DNA from: Actinomycetota bacterium
GTDB taxonomy: Bacteria > Actinomycetota > Actinomycetes > Mycobacteriales > Mycobacteriaceae
Assembly (NCBI GenBank): GCA_018268465.1
Contig: JAFDWN010000007.1
Span: forward strand, 210,258 to 274,257
Length of the DNA: 64,000 nucleotides
Reading direction: 5' to 3'
In this document: positions 53,115 to 61,371 of the stretch, in pieces
Layout: each line of letters opens with the position of its first letter
Numbering within the stretch: position 1 is the first letter of the stretch
The notes under the pieces: generated by a model
The model's database searches: none
What the model saw: only the letters and a program-made list of their open reading frames with translations
What the model was told of the DNA's origin: nothing
Program-made: the position numbers and the translations under genes

Positions 53115-53148
53115 CCTTGATCAACTGTTATGCGCAAATCGATCAAGG
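53115..53148 (+). promoter_or_regulatory. Inverted repeat covering the E1 ribosome-binding site
   Basis: CCTTGATC (53115-53122) and GATCAAGG (53141-53148) are perfect eight-base arms around an 18-base loop. The right arm includes most of AAGGA (53145-53149), the Shine-Dalgarno sequence of the E1-like gene. The hairpin could hide it in mRNA, or the palindrome could be an Lrp binding site in DNA. Confidence 0.6.
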
Positions 53149-53156
53149 ACTGCACG

Positions 53157-55478
53157 ATGCTGACCCGCCATCCGGACATCCCCGAGTCCTCCCTCGCGAC
53201 CGCGGCGCTACAAGACGTCGCCGATCAGGTGCTGTGGCTGGCGACCGCGATGATCCACCACGCCAATCACGTCCGGCCCAATCTCAGCGGGCTGAAGGTC
53301 GGCGGTCATCAGGCCTCGTGCGCCTCGATCGCCACGATCATGACATCGTTGTTCTTCGAACAGTTGCGGGCCGGCGACCGGGTTTCGGTGAAGCCACACG
53401 CCTCGCCCGTCCTTCATGCGATCAACTACCTGCTCGGCGAACTCGACGAGAGCTATCTGACGCGCCTGCGCGAATTCGGCGGTCTGCAGAGCTATCCGAG
53501 CCGCACCAAGGACCCCGATCCCGTCGACTACTCGACCGGATCGGTGGGAATCGGTGCCACCGCACCGATCTGGGGTGCCATCGCGCGCCGCTACGTGCAC
53601 ACCGCCTTCGGCGGCGCGGGTTCGGGCAGGCAGTACTCACTGGTCGGCGACGCGGAACTGGACGAAGGCGCGGTGTGGGAAGCGATTCTCGACCCGTCGG
53701 TCGCCGAACTCGGCGAAATCGTCTGGGTCATCGACATGAACCGGCAGTCCCTGGACCGCGTGGTGCCCAACATCGCCGCGGGCCGCCTCGCCTCGATGTT
53801 CTCGGCGGCGGGCTGGCAGGTCATCGACGTCAAATTCGGCACGCTCCTCGAAGCGCTGTTCAGGCGCCAGGGCGGCGGATCGCTTCGGCAGCGGATCCTC
53901 GACATGCCCAACCCCGAGTACCAACGCCTCCTGCGATGCGACGCAGGGGAACTGCGCTCCCGGTTGCCCGGCGACGGTCCGGGCGCCGCCGAAATCGCGT
54001 CCCTGATACGTGAACTCGACGACGACACGCTGGTGCGGGCGATCAGCAACCTCGGCGGGCACGACCTCGACGCGCTGCGGGAAGCCTTCGCGCAGATCGA
54101 CGACCGCCGGCCCACCGTCATCATCGCCTACACCGTCAAGGGCTACGGCCTGCCGATCCAGGGACACCCCCAGAACCACTCGTCGCTGCTGAGCATCGAG
54201 CAGTTCGGAGAATTGGCCGACCGGGTGGGCAAGGACGCTGCCGCGCCGTGGGGCCGGTTCGATCCGCAATCCGCGGCGGGCCGGATCTGCGCGGAAGCCG
54301 GCGACCGGCTACACCGAGGTGCATCCGCACCCGTCGCGCCTCCCGCCGTGCCCACCGAAATCGGACGAAATCCGTTGGCCGTCACCACCACCCAGGCAGC
54401 GCTCGGCCGTGTGCTGCTGGACCTCACGCGCGAAGCGCCCGACGTCGCCCGCCGGGTGGTCACGGTCAGTCCCGACGTCAGTTCGACTACCAACCTGGCC
54501 GGTTGGCTGAACAAGGTCGGGGTGTGGTCGCCCACCGAACGCCGCGACTGGTTCGCTGACGACGCCGAGACCATCATGCACTGGCGTGAACGTCCAACGG
54601 GCCAGCACATCGAACTGGGCATAGCCGAGACGAACCTGGTCGGCCTGATCGGGGAACTCGGGGCGACCTGGAGCCGTTGGGGTGAGCCGCTGCTGCCCAT
54701 CGGTGTCCTCTACGATCCGTTCGTCGAACGGGCGCTGGAACCATGGTCTTTCGGCATCTACGCCGGAGGGCAGTCGATTCTCGTCGGCACCCCGGCCGGC
54801 GTCACACTCGCCGCGGAGGGCGGTGCGCACCAGTCGATCAAGACCCCGTCCATCGGCATCGAACAGCCCGGTTGTGTCTCCTACGAACCGGCGTTCGCCG
54901 TCGAGGTGGAATGGATCCTGCTGCACTGCATGGCACAACTGGGCCGGCCCAGTGGGCGGTCAGCCTATCTGCGGTTGTCCACCCGGCCGGTGCACCAGGA
55001 TCTGGCCGCTCTGCCCGGCGACCCGGCCGCGCGGGAGCGGCGCCGCCGCCAGGTCGTCGCCGGCGCATACACCCTGCGCCCGAAAACCCATCCGGCCGTG
55101 CGTATCGTCACGATGGGCGCGGTGGCGACCGAAGCACTTTCAGCATCGGATCGGTTGGCGCACAACGGTATCGACGCAGAGGTGGTGTGCGTCACCAGTC
55201 CCGGCCTGCTCTTCGACGCGACGCTGGCGCGGCAGGGTAAGGGTGACGCCCCGTCGTGGATTCTCGACCAGGTCTTCCCCGCCGATCGTCCGGCACCGAT
55301 GGTCACCGTCCTCGACGGCCATCCGCACGCGCTGGCGTTCCTGCCGGCGGTGACCGGGGCCGCGCATCGGTCGCTGGGCGTCACCGAGTTCGGCCGGGCC
55401 GGCGCGCTGGACGACGTCTACCGCTGGCATGGCATCGACGCCGACGCCATCGTGCGCGCGGCGCTGGACCTGGTGTGA
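53157..55478 (+). CDS. Pyruvate dehydrogenase E1-like/transketolase-family enzyme
   Basis: A 773-residue thiamine-diphosphate enzyme of the homodimeric E1 (AceE)/transketolase superfamily, shorter than the roughly 930 residues of mycobacterial AceE. The ThDP/Mg motif begins SLVGDAELDEGAVWE and ends WVIDMNRQS; the N-terminal HANHVRPNLSGLKVGGHQAS and YTVKGYGLPIQGHPQNHS are typical; the pyrimidine domain reads QHIELGIAETNLVGLIGELG. It should decarboxylate a 2-oxo acid; pyruvate or a branched-chain 2-oxo acid is possible. ATG at 53157 is preferred to 53130 because AAGGA lies seven bases upstream. Divergent Lrp regulation points to control by an amino acid or 2-oxo acid. No E2 or E3 gene is adjacent. 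Confidence 0.85.
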   Translation: MLTRHPDIPESSLATAALQDVADQVLWLATAMIHHANHVRPNLSGLKVGGHQASCASIATIMTSLFFEQLRAGDRVSVKPHASPVLHAINYLLGELDESYLTRLREFGGLQSYPSRTKDPDPVDYSTGSVGIGATAPIWGAIARRYVHTAFGGAGSGRQYSLVGDAELDEGAVWEAILDPSVAELGEIVWVIDMNRQSLDRVVPNIAAGRLASMFSAAGWQVIDVKFGTLLEALFRRQGGGSLRQRILDMPNPEYQRLLRCDAGELRSRLPGDGPGAAEIASLIRELDDDTLVRAISNLGGHDLDALREAFAQIDDRRPTVIIAYTVKGYGLPIQGHPQNHSSLLSIEQFGELADRVGKDAAAPWGRFDPQSAAGRICAEAGDRLHRGASAPVAPPAVPTEIGRNPLAVTTTQAALGRVLLDLTREAPDVARRVVTVSPDVSSTTNLAGWLNKVGVWSPTERRDWFADDAETIMHWRERPTGQHIELGIAETNLVGLIGELGATWSRWGEPLLPIGVLYDPFVERALEPWSFGIYAGGQSILVGTPAGVTLAAEGGAHQSIKTPSIGIEQPGCVSYEPAFAVEVEWILLHCMAQLGRPSGRSAYLRLSTRPVHQDLAALPGDPAARERRRRQVVAGAYTLRPKTHPAVRIVTMGAVATEALSASDRLAHNGIDAEVVCVTSPGLLFDATLARQGKGDAPSWILDQVFPADRPAPMVTVLDGHPHALAFLPAVTGAAHRSLGVTEFGRAGALDDVYRWHGIDADAIVRAALDLV

Positions 55479-55517
55479 CGCTTGGATTTCCACGCATCGT
55501 CCGGATGCACCGACATG

Positions 55518-56345
55518 TCAGCGACGGTGCGGAACAGACTCGTCGGGGGCCTCCCGAAGCGCCCGCCACAGCTGTGCGGCGGTGATCCGGGCGTGGCCGT
55601 CGGGCACGATTCTCGAGCCGCTCGCGGGCTGATCGGCGGGTACGCCGCCGATGTGTTCGATCAGCGCGACGGCCAGCGCCCGCACCTTGAGGTTGGCCCG
55701 CTGACTGGTGTCCCGCAGCGTCTTCCACGCGGTGTCGGCGTCACAGCCCAACTGCCCCATGACGGCGCCCTTGGCCTGTTCGATACAGCCACGGGACTGG
55801 ACGATCGCAAGCGCCTGATCGATGGCGGTGGTGGCGGTGGCGGCCACCAGCGCCGACGCCACCAGCTGTTCGTAGCCGATCAGCGTCGTCACCGTCGTGG
55901 CGTCGGCGGGACCGCTCAGCGTCGACGAGAGCACCACGGTGGTTTCGTCGCCCCACGAACCGGGTACGGCGGCCGCGCCCACCACCGGGTGCACGTCGGC
56001 GACACCGGCGTCGGCGATCGCAGCGGCGCCGAGAGCGGGCCAGCGGTCGTCGCGGGTGACGGCCAGGCTGATCACCGGCAGCTGATGGCGCACCGCGTCG
56101 GGTACCGGACCGCCGCAGCGCACCTGAGCCGCGATCACGCCGTTCTCGATACCCCGGTGCGCCAGGACATGGACACCCGAGCCGTCGCCGGCGCTGACGG
56201 CCAGACCGAGCGCCTCGGGCAGATCGGCGGCCACGCGTTCCAGGATGCGGTCGAGCAGCTCCCCGAGTTGGGTGTTGCGCCGAAGTTGGTCCAACGTTAT
56301 GGGCAAAGGCCGCTCCTGCGCCGGTGATCGGTGGTCAGTCGACAC
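55518..56345 (-). CDS. GAF-ANTAR RNA-binding antitermination regulator
   Basis: A 275-residue protein with a GAF sensor domain (about 20-165, LGELLDRILERVAADLPEAL) and an ANTAR domain (about 175-235: DQALAIVQSRGCIEQAKGAV then MGQLGCDADTAWKTLRDTSQ and NLKVRALAVALIEHIGG). ANTAR domains bind paired hairpins in mRNA leaders and prevent termination. The GTG at 56345 overlaps the STAS gene by 11 bases; TTG at 56306, six bases after CAGGAG, is a good alternative. It is the last gene of the module with the hybrid kinase, which could link stress signals to RNA-level control. Confidence 0.87.
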   Translation of the reverse strand: MSTDHRSPAQERPLPITLDQLRRNTQLGELLDRILERVAADLPEALGLAVSAGDGSGVHVLAHRGIENGVIAAQVRCGGPVPDAVRHQLPVISLAVTRDDRWPALGAAAIADAGVADVHPVVGAAAVPGSWGDETTVVLSSTLSGPADATTVTTLIGYEQLVASALVAATATTAIDQALAIVQSRGCIEQAKGAVMGQLGCDADTAWKTLRDTSQRANLKVRALAVALIEHIGGVPADQPASGSRIVPDGHARITAAQLWRALREAPDESVPHRR

Positions 56346-56646
56346 GTCTGACGGTCGTGATGCGGTCGAGTCCGGAGATCCGCAACAGCGCCGTCACCGG
56401 TCCGCGGTCGCGAATGCTCACCGTCAGTTTGGTGTGGGCGGCGACGGTGAACAGCGCCCGCATCGCGGCACTGTCGCAGTACGTCACCTCGCGCAGATCC
56501 ACCTCGACGGTGTCCGCCGCGGACGCGGCCTCGTCGAGGACGACGCGGAACTGGTCGACGTTGGACAGGTCGATCTCACCTCGCGCCGTGACCAGGGGTG
56601 CGCACGCGTCATCGCCGGACGCCACCACGAACTGCGGCTCGGTCAA
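56335..56646 (-). CDS. STAS-domain anti-sigma-factor antagonist
   Basis: A 103-residue single STAS domain, like RsbV/SpoIIAA. The N-terminal GEIDLSNVDQFRVVLDEA, VEVDLREVTYCDSAAMRAL with the phospho-acceptor Ser at about residue 59 (DSAA in place of DSSG), and VSIRDRGPVTALLRISGLD are visible. An RsbW-type kinase would phosphorylate that Ser and a PP2C phosphatase would remove it; both activities are encoded in the protein just upstream. The TTG at 56646 follows AAGGAGG by nine bases. Confidence 0.9.
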   Translation of the reverse strand: MTEPQFVVASGDDACAPLVTARGEIDLSNVDQFRVVLDEAASAADTVEVDLREVTYCDSAAMRALFTVAAHTKLTVSIRDRGPVTALLRISGLDRITTVRRVD

Positions 56647-56764
56647 CGGTCACGCCTCCTTAGACGAGTGCGGGACGGGCGCTGTCGTACGGCAATTGTC
56701 GCGCGTTCGACGCCGCACGTGCAGCGCTGCGAGGGTGCGGACGGCGGGTCCCGCCCCGGGGCCG

Positions 56765-59700
56765 TCACCGGGTCACACTCGCACACAGCCGAACGGTGGT
56801 GCCCGCGGCGTCGGAGTGAAAGGACACGTCGTTCATCAACGCCCGCATCAGCGTCACGCCCCGGCCACGGTGCAGGCCGGTGTCCGTCCGTGGGGTCTTC
56901 CACGAGCCGCAATCGCTGATGGTGAGCCGGAGCTGGTCGACGAGGGCGGTCGCGTGCAGGGTGATGGCGCCGTCCGGTTCGTCGCGGTGGCCGTGTTCGA
57001 TGGCGTTGGCCAGGGCTTCACCCGCGGCGATCAGGACGTCATAGGCCTGTTCGGTGTCGATCCCCGCACGCGTCAGCCAGCTCCGCAGCGCGGCACGCGT
57101 CGCCGCGAGGTGACCCGCGTCGGCGGATATGCGCACTTCCAGGGGCGGCGGTTGTCGGTAGAGCAGCAGTGCGACGTCGTCCTGGTAGCCGCCACCGGGC
57201 ACCAACCGGGTCATGATCTCGCTCGCGAGATCATCGAGAACCCTGGCGCCGCCCCCCTCGACGAGGCCGGCCGCGCGCGCGATGCCGTCGTCGAGCGACT
57301 GGCGACGCCGTTCGACCAGGCCGTCGGTGTAGAGCAGCAGGGTGGCGCGGGGCGGCATGGTGACCCGGGCTTCTGCCCGGGACGGCTGCGGAGTGAGGCC
57401 CAGCGGGACCGCACGAACCTCGTCGAGCATCTGCGTGGTGTGGTCCGCGTGGACGAGGATGGGCGGCGGGTGACCGGCGGTGGAATACACCAGCTCACCG
57501 GTCTCGGGGTCGAGTACCGCACACAGCGCCGTGGTGCACTGCGCGCCGGGCAGGCGGGCGGCGAACCGGTCCAGTCCCTCCAAGGCGGCGCGGGGACTGG
57601 GATGCTCGAGCAGCAGCGCGCGGCAGGCGCTGCGCAGCTGCCCCATGACGCTGGCGGCGGCCAGGCCGTGGCCGACGCAGTCGCCGACGACCAGCGCGAT
57701 GCGCCCGTCGTCGAGTTCGACGACGTCGTACCAGTCGCCGCCGACCTGCAGCGGGCGCGTCGCGGGCTGGTAGCGCACCTCGAATCCGTCGGGCAGGCGG
57801 GCCGGACCCAGGATCGCGTGCTGCAGCGCCAACGCCGTCTCCCGTTGCTGGTCGAGTTGATGCACGCGCTGCAGACCCTGATCCAGGCGGCCGGCGAGCA
57901 CGGTCAGCAGTTCGTGGTCCGCGGGGGTGAACGGATGGCGATCCTCAAGCTCGATCGACACGACCACCACACCCCGCGGATGGCGCAGCGCGATGCCGAC
58001 CACGCCGGTTTCGTCCTGCTGCGGGGTGAGCAGGCCACCGTCGCGCGAGGCCTCGATGATCCGGCGGCTGCGCTCGGGCAGGTCTGCCCAGTGCGCGGGC
58101 GGCCCGACCACCACGAGTTCCGGCGGGCGGGCCGCGGCGCCGGCGGTTTGGTCGCGAGCGGGGAAGGTGGTGGCCACGACGCGGCGCGCGTGCCACAGGT
58201 GCCGCAGCGCGGTGCCCGCCGCCCGCAGCGCATCCTCGACGGTGTCCGCCTGGGCGAGTTGCTGATTGACGGCGGCGAGCGCGGTGGTGCGTTGCACGAC
58301 GTAGTGCTCGTCGGTGGTGTCCCGGAAGGTACCGACGATGACACGCCCGCCGGTGTCGGGATCGGCGGCATGGCTGAAGCTGATGGTGATCCACAGCCGG
58401 GGGCCGTCCCGGTGGGACACCGGGATCGTGAACGTGCCGCGGGGGCGACTGAGCAGCTCGTCGTGGGCGGCAACGATCAGACTGTGGGCCTCGGGATCCT
58501 CCGTGGCGTCGGGCCACCACGGCGCGGCCGGTGGGTAGGGCAGGCCGTCGGCGCCGTAGCCGAGGATATCGGTGAACGCCGCATTGATCTCCACCACGGC
58601 GCCGTGCTCGTCGCAGACGAAGAACGCCTCCTGCAACGAGTCGATGAGCGCGGCGCGCCACCGGGTGTGGTGGCCGCGCATGCGCGCGAGTTCGATGTTG
58701 GCCCGCACCCGCGCCACCAGATCGGCCGCCGCGAACGGTTTGGCCAGATAGTCGTCGGCGCCGGCCCGCAGACCTTCGATGGAATCGTCCTGGCCGGCAC
58801 GCGCCGACAGCAGCAGTACGGGCAGTGCGGCGGTACGCGGATCGGACCGGAGCGCGGCGAGCAGCTCGAAGCCGTCCATCCCCGGCATCATGACATCGCT
58901 GATCACCAGGTCGGGGAGGTCGGCGCGGGCGGCCTGCAGGGCCAGCACGCCGTCGGCGACGGTGTCGACGCGGTACCCCGCGGCGCACAGCAGCCGGTCC
59001 AGGTATTCGCGCATGTCGGCGTTGTCGTCGACGACCAGCACACGCGCTCCTGCCGCCGATCCCGCCGCGCCGCCGGTCGGCCCCGCGACGCCGTCGTCGG
59101 GTAACCACTGCAGCGCTTCGGTCACGTACGGGTCGGCGATGCGGGCGATGTCGCGCGTACCCGCGGTGGCGTCGTGGCGCTCGGCGGGCAGGTGGGCGGT
59201 GCCGAAGGGCAGCCGGACCGTGAACGCCGAGCCCCGCCCCTCGGTGCTGTCGGCGGCGATGCTGCCGCCGTGCATCCCCACCAGTTCCCTGACCAGCGCC
59301 AGACCGATACCGCTGCCCTCGATGGAACGCGCTCGCGCGGTCTCGACGCGGTAGAAGCGCTCGAACAGCCGGGGCATCTCGTCGGCGGGCACGCCGATCC
59401 CCGTGTCGGAGACCGTGATCACCGCGTCGTCACCGTCGCGGGCGCACACCAGGCTGACCGAACCCGTGAACGTGTACTTCAGCGCGTTGGACAGCAGGTT
59501 CAGGATCACCTTCTCCCACATGTCCCGGTCCAGGTGGACCGGCTCCCCCAGCGGGGGACAGTTCACGGTGAACGTCAGTCCCGCGCGTTCGATGGCCGAA
59601 CGGAAGACGCTGGCCAGCTCGGCGGTGACGGCGGCGATGTCGACGGGCTCGTAGTGGGCCTGCATGCGGCCCGCTTCGATGCGGGAGAAATCCAGCAGTG

Positions 59701-60922
59701 CGGTGACGAGTTTGTTCAGTCGCAGCGCGTTTCGGTGGACGAGGTCGAGTTCGCCGCGGGTGTGCTCGTCGATGCCGGCCGGATGGGCGCGCAGTTCGGC
59801 GACGGGTCCCAGGATAAGCCCCAGCGGTGTGCGGAACTCGTGGCTGATGTTGGCGAAGAATGTGGTCTTCGCCCGATCCAATTCGGCCAGTTCGGCAGCG
59901 CGCCGCTGTTGGGCCTGATAACTGCGGACGCTGGCGATCGCCGCCGCGAGGTGGCCGGCCACCAGGGTGACGAAACCGCGGTACTCGTCGTCCAGTGGCC
60001 GGTAGCGGTTGAGCGCCGCGACCAGGAAGCCGCACGGCACGCCGCCCCGCTGGGGGATGGGGACCACCAGGGCCCGGGTGGGCGGTTCGGGCCAGGCGCC
60101 CGCCGGCAGGTCGCCGAACCGCGCCGGGTCGAGGTCGACCACGACCGTCACACCCCGCGCCGGCTGTTCGGCGGGCCAGACGTCGGCACCATCGGCGGGA
60201 AACACGAGTGGCGCAGCGCGATGCCCGCGGTCGATGCCGCTCGTGGCCGCCAGGCGGGCCGAACCGTCCGCGGTCAGCAGGTAGGTCAGGGTGAATGGCA
60301 GGTCGCGTGTGTTACCCCCGAGTTGGAGGGCCGCGAAAGCCAGGGTCTCCTCTTCGGAACGGCTGAGGCTGGGATCCGAACCCAGATCCCGCAACGTGGC
60401 GATGCGCCGCTCCGCGATCACCCGGTTGGTGTCCTCGCTGACCACACAGAGCATGCCGACGACCTGCCCGCCGTCGTCGCGCAGCGGACTGTACGAGAAC
60501 GTGTGGTAGGACTCCTCGGGATAGCCCGACCGCTCCAGGAACAGGAGCAGTCCCTCGTCCCACGTCGCCTCACCCGTGGCGAGGACGTGCTCGATGCGGG
60601 GGCCGACGTCGTCCCAGATCTCCGCCCAGACCTCCCCGGCGGGACGGCCGAGCGCCCACGGGTACTTGCGGCCCAGCGTGTCCCGGCGGTAGGCGGCGTT
60701 GCAGAAGAACGTGCGATCCGGACCCCACGCCATCCACATCGCGAACCGCGACGACAGCAGGATGTCCACCGCCGTCTGCAGACTCTGCGGCCACGTATCC
60801 GGCGTCCCCAGGGCGGTCGCCGCCCAGTCCACCTTCGCCAGGTCGCCACCGACAGCGGGGTCGGACGCGAATGTCGTTGTCGCCCAGTTATTCGCGGGTT
60901 GTTCCGCGTCGTCAACGCCCAA
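56765..60922 (-). CDS. Hybrid histidine kinase-receiver-PP2C-RsbW signalling protein
   Basis: A 1385-residue cytosolic protein with no membrane segment. Domains in order: PAS-like (about 30-170), GAF (180-335), HisKA with His361 (ISHEFRTP), HATPase (460-575: NLLSNALKYT, DTGIGVP, GSGIGLALV), receiver (625-745) with Asp676 and Lys728, PAS (755-875), GAF (885-1020), PP2C/SpoIIE phosphatase (1040-1255: GGDWYDV, GDCVGHG, YTDG, QDDV), and RsbW-like ATPase (1260-1385: GEALANAIEHGH, DCGSW, GRG). All key residues of the two kinases, receiver and phosphatase are kept. It can join a phosphorelay with the partner-switch that controls stress sigma factors. The TTG at 60922 follows GGGAGGG by about seven bases. 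STAS and ANTAR genes follow. Confidence 0.9.
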   Translation of the reverse strand: MGVDDAEQPANNWATTTFASDPAVGGDLAKVDWAATALGTPDTWPQSLQTAVDILLSSRFAMWMAWGPDRTFFCNAAYRRDTLGRKYPWALGRPAGEVWAEIWDDVGPRIEHVLATGEATWDEGLLLFLERSGYPEESYHTFSYSPLRDDGGQVVGMLCVVSEDTNRVIAERRIATLRDLGSDPSLSRSEEETLAFAALQLGGNTRDLPFTLTYLLTADGSARLAATSGIDRGHRAAPLVFPADGADVWPAEQPARGVTVVVDLDPARFGDLPAGAWPEPPTRALVVPIPQRGGVPCGFLVAALNRYRPLDDEYRGFVTLVAGHLAAAIASVRSYQAQQRRAAELAELDRAKTTFFANISHEFRTPLGLILGPVAELRAHPAGIDEHTRGELDLVHRNALRLNKLVTALLDFSRIEAGRMQAHYEPVDIAAVTAELASVFRSAIERAGLTFTVNCPPLGEPVHLDRDMWEKVILNLLSNALKYTFTGSVSLVCARDGDDAVITVSDTGIGVPADEMPRLFERFYRVETARARSIEGSGIGLALVRELVGMHGGSIAADSTEGRGSAFTVRLPFGTAHLPAERHDATAGTRDIARIADPYVTEALQWLPDDGVAGPTGGAAGSAAGARVLVVDDNADMREYLDRLLCAAGYRVDTVADGVLALQAARADLPDLVISDVMMPGMDGFELLAALRSDPRTAALPVLLLSARAGQDDSIEGLRAGADDYLAKPFAAADLVARVRANIELARMRGHHTRWRAALIDSLQEAFFVCDEHGAVVEINAAFTDILGYGADGLPYPPAAPWWPDATEDPEAHSLIVAAHDELLSRPRGTFTIPVSHRDGPRLWITISFSHAADPDTGGRVIVGTFRDTTDEHYVVQRTTALAAVNQQLAQADTVEDALRAAGTALRHLWHARRVVATTFPARDQTAGAAARPPELVVVGPPAHWADLPERSRRIIEASRDGGLLTPQQDETGVVGIALRHPRGVVVVSIELEDRHPFTPADHELLTVLAGRLDQGLQRVHQLDQQRETALALQHAILGPARLPDGFEVRYQPATRPLQVGGDWYDVVELDDGRIALVVGDCVGHGLAAASVMGQLRSACRALLLEHPSPRAALEGLDRFAARLPGAQCTTALCAVLDPETGELVYSTAGHPPPILVHADHTTQMLDEVRAVPLGLTPQPSRAEARVTMPPRATLLLYTDGLVERRRQSLDDGIARAAGLVEGGGARVLDDLASEIMTRLVPGGGYQDDVALLLYRQPPPLEVRISADAGHLAATRAALRSWLTRAGIDTEQAYDVLIAAGEALANAIEHGHRDEPDGAITLHATALVDQLRLTISDCGSWKTPRTDTGLHRGRGVTLMRALMNDVSFHSDAAGTTVRLCASVTR

Positions 60923-61035
60923 CCGGCAGCCCTCCCGTTCAGCCTGACCGGGTCTGCTGCCGCGGATCGTCTCACTGCGGGGTATCCGCCCCGACCCTAC
61001 CGCACCGGGGCCGGCTCACGACGCGGTCGACGGCG

Positions 61036-61371
61036 CTAGGTGGCGACCTCCTCGATCTGCAACTCGCCCATCTCCGACCAGCCGTCGGCGTCGATGACGG
61101 TGTGCAGGATCTGCGGTGTTCTGGTCAGTGCGGGCCGCATCGCATCCAGTCCGGCCTGGAAATGGGGTGCGGTGACGTGGGCGACCCCGGCGTCCTGATC
61201 CCGAAACGCTTCGACCAGAACGAATTCGGACGGGTTGTCGACGCTGCGGGACCACTCGTACCAGAGGTTTCCCGGCTCGGCCCGGGTGGCCTCGGTGAAG
61301 GCCTTGGTCCTGGCGATCCAGCCGTCGGCGTGTTCGGGCTGGACGGTGAACTTGACCACGATGAAGATCAT
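61036..61371 (-). CDS. ABM-fold monooxygenase-like protein
   Basis: A 111-residue dimeric alpha-beta-barrel protein of the antibiotic-biosynthesis-monooxygenase (YgiN-like) family. It begins MIFIVVKFTVQPEHADGWIA, with EPGNLWYEWSRSVDNPSEFV and a HVTAPHFQAGLDAM segment, typical of the fold. Members oxidise quinol- or anthrone-type compounds without cofactor. The ATG at 61371 follows GGAGTACCGAC. It lies 17 bases after the alcohol dehydrogenase gene and is thus in its operon; role with that enzyme is unclear. Confidence 0.85.
   Translation of the reverse strand: MIFIVVKFTVQPEHADGWIARTKAFTEATRAEPGNLWYEWSRSVDNPSEFVLVEAFRDQDAGVAHVTAPHFQAGLDAMRPALTRTPQILHTVIDADGWSEMGELQIEEVAT

Follow-up and report, generated by a model that had tools for sequence, protein, structure and literature searches.

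The operon described here lies at positions 55518 to 60922, on the minus strand, of a 64,000-nucleotide (nt) stretch of a Mycobacteriaceae genome (the window; GenBank assembly GCA_018268465.1, contig JAFDWN010000007.1, positions 210,258 to 274,257). In reading order, it encodes a 1385-residue protein that unites histidine kinase, receiver, PP2C phosphatase and RsbW-type Ser kinase in a single chain (the fused protein), a STAS protein, and an ANTAR protein. Judged from profiles and trees, the operon is a hybrid of two modules, with a STAS-ANTAR pair in place of the fused protein's own STAS. The preferred functional reading, to which we give a probability of roughly 0.5, is that the fused protein acts as a single-chain phosphorelay and partner switch on Ser59 of the STAS protein, and that the STAS-ANTAR pair has been swapped in, with the ANTAR protein as the most likely output and cross-talk to UsfX and SigF possible.

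Lineage of the STAS protein

The window STAS protein scored 122.5 bits against a profile model of ANTAR-linked STAS proteins versus 75.6 bits against the model of fusion-linked STAS proteins, which gives approximately 140 bits to two fusion-linked examples. Its mean score was 96 bits against ANTAR-linked and 48 bits against fusion-linked STAS proteins, and in the tree it grouped with STAS proteins encoded directly before ANTAR orthologs (support 0.999). The PP2C-RsbW core of the fused protein grouped with the fusions of the genus, in a clade of 31 fusions (30 from the genus and one from Amycolatopsis) and 8 GAF variants (support 0.915). Because the core groups with the genus fusions and the STAS protein with the ANTAR-linked lineage, the operon appears to join two modules. 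A preliminary description of this DNA, made from the sequence alone, had taken the STAS protein as the dedicated target of the chain. That view was not borne out, since the profiles and the tree place it in another lineage; on these comparisons it is not the fused protein's usual partner, and the window locus has no fusion-linked STAS gene directly downstream of the fused gene. Nor was any other STAS_2 match of the fusion-linked type found in the same genome, where three others of the five matches reached at most 39.6 bits and the fifth gave no score.

The genes and the sites associated with them are as follows.
60931 to 60936, minus strand: GGGAGG, likely ribosome-binding site of the fused gene, approximately 8 nt 5' of the TTG (sequence)
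56765 to 60922, minus strand: fused histidine kinase-receiver-PP2C-RsbW gene, 1385 residues, TTG start (open reading frame and translation)
56647 to 56764, minus strand: 118-nt gap between the fused gene and the STAS gene (coordinates)
56655 to 56661, minus strand: AAGGAGG, likely ribosome-binding site of the STAS gene (sequence)
56335 to 56646, minus strand: STAS protein of the ANTAR-linked lineage, 103 residues, TTG start (Pfam STAS_2, E value (E) 3e-12)
55518 to 56345, minus strand: ANTAR protein, 275 residues, overlapping the STAS gene by 11 nt (Pfam ANTAR, E 1e-14; ANTAR domain at 55659 to 55802)

The window STAS protein carries Ser59 in the context D58-S59-A (D-S-A; codon 56470 to 56472), thus having a phosphorylatable Ser after Asp, as in STAS anti-sigma antagonists of the RsbV type.

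Domains and key residues of the fused protein

Pfam found HisKA, HATPase, receiver, PAS, PP2C and RsbW-type domains and one GAF domain on the fused protein, in agreement with most of the domain list of the preliminary description. The second GAF domain in that list was not seen by Pfam at E 0.001, and its first PAS domain was weakly supported. The domains assigned were as follows.
59933 to 60295, minus strand: GAF domain, residues 210 to 330, with a PAS-like region N-terminal to it (GAF_2, E 7e-11)
59669 to 59872, minus strand: HisKA, residues 351 to 418, with His361 (E 4e-14)
59204 to 59527, minus strand: HATPase_c of the histidine kinase, residues 466 to 573 (E 5e-33)
58703 to 59041, minus strand: receiver (Response_reg), residues 628 to 740, with Asp676 (E 2e-28)
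58304 to 58642, minus strand: PAS between receiver and phosphatase (PAS_4, two stretches, the best at residues 761 to 873)
57155 to 57712, minus strand: PP2C/SpoIIE phosphatase, residues 1071 to 1256 (E 2e-47)
56783 to 57130, minus strand: RsbW-type Ser kinase (HATPase_c_2), residues 1265 to 1380, with Asn1306 (E 9e-33)

The residues previously picked out as intact (His361, Asp676, Asp1063, Asp1081, Asp1249 and Asn1306) were present and were each identical in all 45 aligned orthologs, 31 of them from the genus and 14 from other genera (locus L003 was left out of the alignment). The same held for all 28 key residues checked, including D632, D633, D676, S706 and K728 of the receiver, and the Pfam domain order was identical in five further orthologs that were scanned. 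The sequence thus upholds the claim that a PP2C phosphatase and an RsbW-type kinase are joined to a complete histidine kinase-receiver unit on one chain. No CHASE3 domain was found by Pfam, and the chain carries no STAS domain, STAS being a separate gene.

The RsbW domain was 37% identical to an RsbW2-like protein of the same genome (E 3e-18) and gave no match at E up to 1 to the UsfX-like protein. A UsfX-like role for this domain was rejected on the latter result. Since it resembles the RsbW2-like and not the UsfX-like protein, the RsbW domain is probably a kinase, not an anti-sigma factor.

Distribution of the fused architecture

The preliminary description had named no earlier example of the layout. 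The survey that was run supplied many, and an unprecedented architecture was rejected: a near-full-length fused copy (at least 60% identity) was present in 117 of 297 genomes of the genus, the window's own included, and a match at E 1e-60 in 202 of the 297. Three of the near-full-length genus copies contain one in-frame stop each. Outside the genus, the protein was found in one piece at 55 to 66% in 14 genomes of a class sample of 246, and Streptomyces fungicidicus and Rhodococcus ruber plasmids carry further copies, which bear the annotation SpoIIE family protein phosphatase and each have a STAS gene after them. The fused architecture is therefore real and well conserved but not new, and the design is common in related bacteria.

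A STAS gene with the D-S motif follows the fused gene directly in 45/45 aligned orthologs. Among the other genus fused copies, 116/117 are directly followed by a same-strand STAS gene that carries D-S and belongs to the fusion-linked lineage; the modelled STAS region in these 116 starts 3 to 21 nt upstream of where the fused frame ends, the model including some upstream padding. The exception is L246 (genome G079), in which this STAS frame is broken; a PP2C-RsbW/STAS/ANTAR locus (L234) is present in G079 as well. Given the count of 116/117, the fusion and its own type of STAS form a conserved, stable two-gene unit and are no curiosity of the window.

The PP2C-RsbW core also occurs behind other front ends. 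It is 61 to 70% identical to that of the window in eight shorter proteins with open frames of approximately 830 to 930 residues (L149, L010 to L012, L014 and L120 to L122), which are nested among the fusions in the tree (support 0.874); the one that was scanned, L149, has two GAF domains but lacks kinase and receiver. In 3/3 scanned loci of other phyla (L006, L050 and L063), a second histidine kinase is fused to the kinase-receiver half. These comparisons indicate that the front end of the PP2C-RsbW core has been exchanged between proteins.

The 29 genus loci compared first, besides the window's own, were the best-scoring ones and not a random draw. In 7 of these 29 (L084, L086, L087, L090, L098, L101 and L108), the fused gene has, upstream and in the same orientation, an ANTAR-domain gene different from that of the window, and likewise on the Rhodococcus ruber plasmid (L243).

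The STAS-ANTAR pair

Orthologs of the window ANTAR protein were found at E 1e-20 in 46 of the 297 genus genomes, the window's own included. In 44 of the 45 others (40/40 in one set and 4/5 in another), the gene immediately before the ANTAR ortholog, on the same strand, encodes a STAS protein, the exception being an ANTAR locus without STAS (L335). All 40 ANTAR-linked STAS sequences examined have C-D-S. The genes further upstream varied: of the first 40 pairs, 16 had PP2C-RsbW, 5 had RsbW without PP2C and 19 had neither, and all four later pairs had RsbW. The link to an ANTAR protein suggested by the preliminary description is therefore strengthened, but the pair is conserved apart from the fused protein.

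The genes that follow the fused gene had been described as STAS and GAF-ANTAR. Pfam supports the STAS and ANTAR assignments, but no GAF domain was detected in the N-terminal part of the window ANTAR protein at E up to 0.1. The ANTAR domain was present in 13/13 scanned members of the family, and a GAF domain was called in one of the 13 (GAF_2, E 9e-4). Similarity of the ANTAR domain was found to NasR (4akk) and to an ANTAR-matching chain, 6hmj. A single-sequence structure model of the ANTAR protein had a mean predicted local distance difference test score of 37.5, too low for use. ANTAR antiterminators are expected to have two-hairpin RNA targets in leaders; an Rfam search at gathering cut-offs, confined to the window, returned a single tRNA and nothing else.

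Comparison with known systems

The comparisons in this section draw on parts of the cited texts. In the RsfS-RsfR-RsfB-RsbW2 system of Mycobacterium smegmatis, a histidine kinase acts through a receiver-PP2C protein on a STAS Ser, with an RsbW-type kinase that has no anti-sigma role working in opposition (PMC10950880, PMC7693655); RsbW2 is reported to be a kinase and not to bind SigF (PMC7693655). The window operon has the same set of receiver-PP2C phosphatase, histidine kinase, RsbW-type kinase and STAS. There, the components are four separate proteins with a CHASE3 sensor, whereas here kinase, receiver, phosphatase and Ser kinase share one chain whose input region is PAS-GAF. Receiver control is reported to differ in sign between systems: receiver phosphorylation lowers phosphatase activity toward RsfB in M. 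smegmatis RsfSR and raises it in Bacillus cereus RsbKY (PMC10950880).

HsbR-HsbA of Pseudomonas aeruginosa and CrsR-CrsA of Shewanella oneidensis resemble the fused protein in having receiver, PP2C and kinase/anti-sigma domain in this order on one chain that acts on a STAS protein (PMC6482189), an order that Pfam also gives for the fused protein. They differ in that the histidine kinase is fused, and a PAS lies between receiver and PP2C, in the protein described here, while HsbR and CrsR are described without a histidine kinase on the chain and with FlgM/HsbD and RpoS as targets (PMC6482189). Proteins of the HsbR/CrsR family take phosphate from a separate kinase or phosphotransfer protein; the fused protein has a kinase of its own, and may receive outside input as well. 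In SypE-SypA of Vibrio fischeri, too, a single chain that has a STAS partner combines receiver, PP2C and RsbW-type kinase, but in the order RsbW-receiver-PP2C and, in the account cited, without a histidine kinase (PMC12826045). The closest solved relative of the PP2C-RsbW half (residues 1047 to 1381) is Rv1364c of Mycobacterium tuberculosis (3ke6, E 3e-53); unlike the fused protein, it is described with PAS input only, with STAS on the same chain and without a kinase-receiver half (PMC10950880). The logic of the fused protein is thus known in pieces from the RsfS-RsfR-RsfB-RsbW2, HsbR-HsbA and SypE-SypA systems, and the histidine kinase on the same chain is the addition here.

SCO7327/OsaD of Streptomyces coelicolor is a hybrid kinase with a receiver, numbered two from the anti-anti-sigma gene RsbV (SCO7325) (PMC9739842, PMC9739823). 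Likened by its description and not by sequence, it is possibly a described ortholog of the fused protein. Were it so, the fused protein may offer an answer to the cascades of three S. coelicolor hybrid kinases, SCO7327 included, which are reported as unclear (PMC9739842).

Among the literature matches listed, there was no description of the fused architecture or of ANTAR proteins with STAS or partner switching, which is weak evidence of absence, with subscription literature mostly outside reach.

Proposed mechanism and alternatives

Partner switches are known mainly for the control of sigma factors, and ANTAR proteins are known mainly as targets of control by sensor domains or kinases. In the preferred reading, the PAS-GAF N-terminal region of the fused protein would sense a signal, and the histidine kinase would phosphorylate the receiver on its own chain (His361 to Asp676). 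Acting through the PAS and the region that follows, the receiver may then set the balance between the PP2C phosphatase and the RsbW-type Ser kinase, in either direction, and these two activities would determine the phosphorylation of Ser59 on the STAS protein encoded next. The STAS protein is predicted to pass the result, presumably by contact, to the ANTAR protein, which by its family would be an antiterminator that binds RNA, or else to UsfX and SigF. Since the usual STAS gene of the fusion is replaced by a STAS-ANTAR pair, the ANTAR protein is the more likely output of the two. ANTAR antiterminators such as NasR (4akk) share the ANTAR domain; the ANTAR gene here is, in addition, paired with a STAS gene.

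The data allow a wider proposal, which we hold tentatively. This would be a partner switch with an antiterminator as output instead of a sigma factor, in which a one-chain phosphorelay sets STAS phosphorylation and thereby frees or holds the ANTAR protein. The STAS-ANTAR pair may be a widespread mycobacterial module that takes different front ends (PP2C-RsbW, RsbW alone, or the histidine-kinase fusion), located beside the pair or away from it. In line with the preferred reading, the fused protein was encoded elsewhere in 19/19 genomes whose pair lacks an adjacent RsbW, versus 11/25 with an adjacent RsbW (Fisher test, P = 4.5e-5, ignoring relatedness), and the association had a P value of 0.03 among genomes at least 95% complete. 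If the wider proposal is true, the STAS-ANTAR pair found in 44/45 genomes, with swappable switch kinases, would represent phosphorylation logic that acts after transcription start. The STAS-ANTAR pair is a new lead, and its place next to the fused chain hints at a possible link between the two kinds of control. The fused protein itself is a compact test case for a receiver that tilts the balance of phosphatase and Ser kinase on one chain.

Several observations weigh against the preferred reading. Besides its neglect of relatedness, the Fisher test is affected by the fact that 10 of the 14 genomes counted without a fusion were less than 95% complete, which weakens the contrast, and another point concerns G009, counted without a fusion, which has a truncated one (residues 20 to 1129). 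The fusion was seen adjoining a STAS-ANTAR pair once; this ANTAR or its STAS type was directly downstream in none of the 117 other genus fused copies (approximately 1.5 kb or more examined), and an ANTAR gene beside the fusion was rejected as a general rule. No flanking gene was common to the window locus and the other loci compared. Adaptation of the switch domains to the new STAS was not seen either: the window departs at 1/115 genus-conserved positions in PP2C (rank 24 of 32) and at 3/42 in RsbW (rank 5 of 32). The departures were more striking in the receiver (7/77, rank 1), and co-adaptation of the PP2C and RsbW domains to the ANTAR-linked STAS was set aside as negative. Finally, the RsfR-RsfS-like and RsfB-RsbW2-like gene pairs of the same genome, described below, could do the SigF job.

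An ordinary input to SigF is a possible alternative, less probable than the preferred reading. The fused protein would control the STAS protein, which in its unphosphorylated form would free SigF from UsfX as RsfB does, and the ANTAR gene would be a co-transcribed neighbor. Of seven sigma-factor matches in the genome, one passes the SigB/F/G cut-off and has a UsfX-like gene beside it, and the window STAS protein is 33% identical to the product of the STAS gene beside sigF (E 4e-9). An RsfSR-RsfB-SigF pathway has been reported in M. smegmatis (PMC10950880), and on the M. gordonae plasmid p1 (L244) a 43% homolog of the fused protein lies approximately 1.2 kb from a sigma gene of the SigB/SigF/SigG family. 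However, the window STAS protein gave no match at E up to 1 to the RsfB-like protein of its own genome, and an ANTAR gene kept directly downstream of this STAS lineage in 44/45 genomes is poorly explained by co-transcription alone.

It is unlikely that the histidine kinase-receiver half is a separate signaling unit or phosphate sink and that the PAS and following sensor region alone control the phosphatase/kinase half. The association of the kinase-receiver half with a second histidine kinase in other phyla, and of the PP2C-RsbW core with two GAF domains in L149, would suit such independence. The near-full-length fusion in 117/297 genus genomes, the receiver and PP2C residues invariant in 45/45 orthologs and the receiver control of PP2C reported for RsfR (PMC10950880) argue for coupling of the halves. 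An assembly error or a recent functionless accident at the join is improbable: the join was seen once, without flanks shared with other loci, in a genome with 5.86% contamination, but the junction is internal to a contig that extends to 274 kb or beyond, the ribosome-binding sites are good, the STAS-ANTAR overlap is tight, and the fused-protein key residues and the STAS Ser are intact.

Other regulators of the genome and neighboring features

The genome carries two related gene pairs on G000:C26, separated by less than 30 kb. In one (approximately 113 to 116 kb, L002), which is RsfR-RsfS-like, a receiver-PP2C gene precedes the gene of a histidine kinase with CHASE3; in the other (approximately 142 kb, L152), which is RsfB-RsbW2-like, a STAS gene precedes an RsbW gene. 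Both labels are assigned by domains and gene order, without comparison to the M. smegmatis sequences. The STAS gene next to sigF is convergent with it (G000:C71, approximately 26.4 kb; L159, L171 and L240), and by eye its usual Ser position appears to read G-T; its product is perhaps phosphorylated in an unusual way or not at all.

A SigF-type promoter before the operon was rejected. The pattern GTTT-N14-18-GGGTA, which we take to be of the SigF type, matched the window once, at a site within the ANTAR gene but on its opposite strand, and matched at least once in 31 of 100 shuffles. No sigma-70 promoters or terminators were found in 55300 to 61200. Convergent with the operon, at 53130 to 55478 of the window, lies a gene resembling the pyruvate dehydrogenase E1/transketolase group, which scored below the NCBIfam aceE cut-off.

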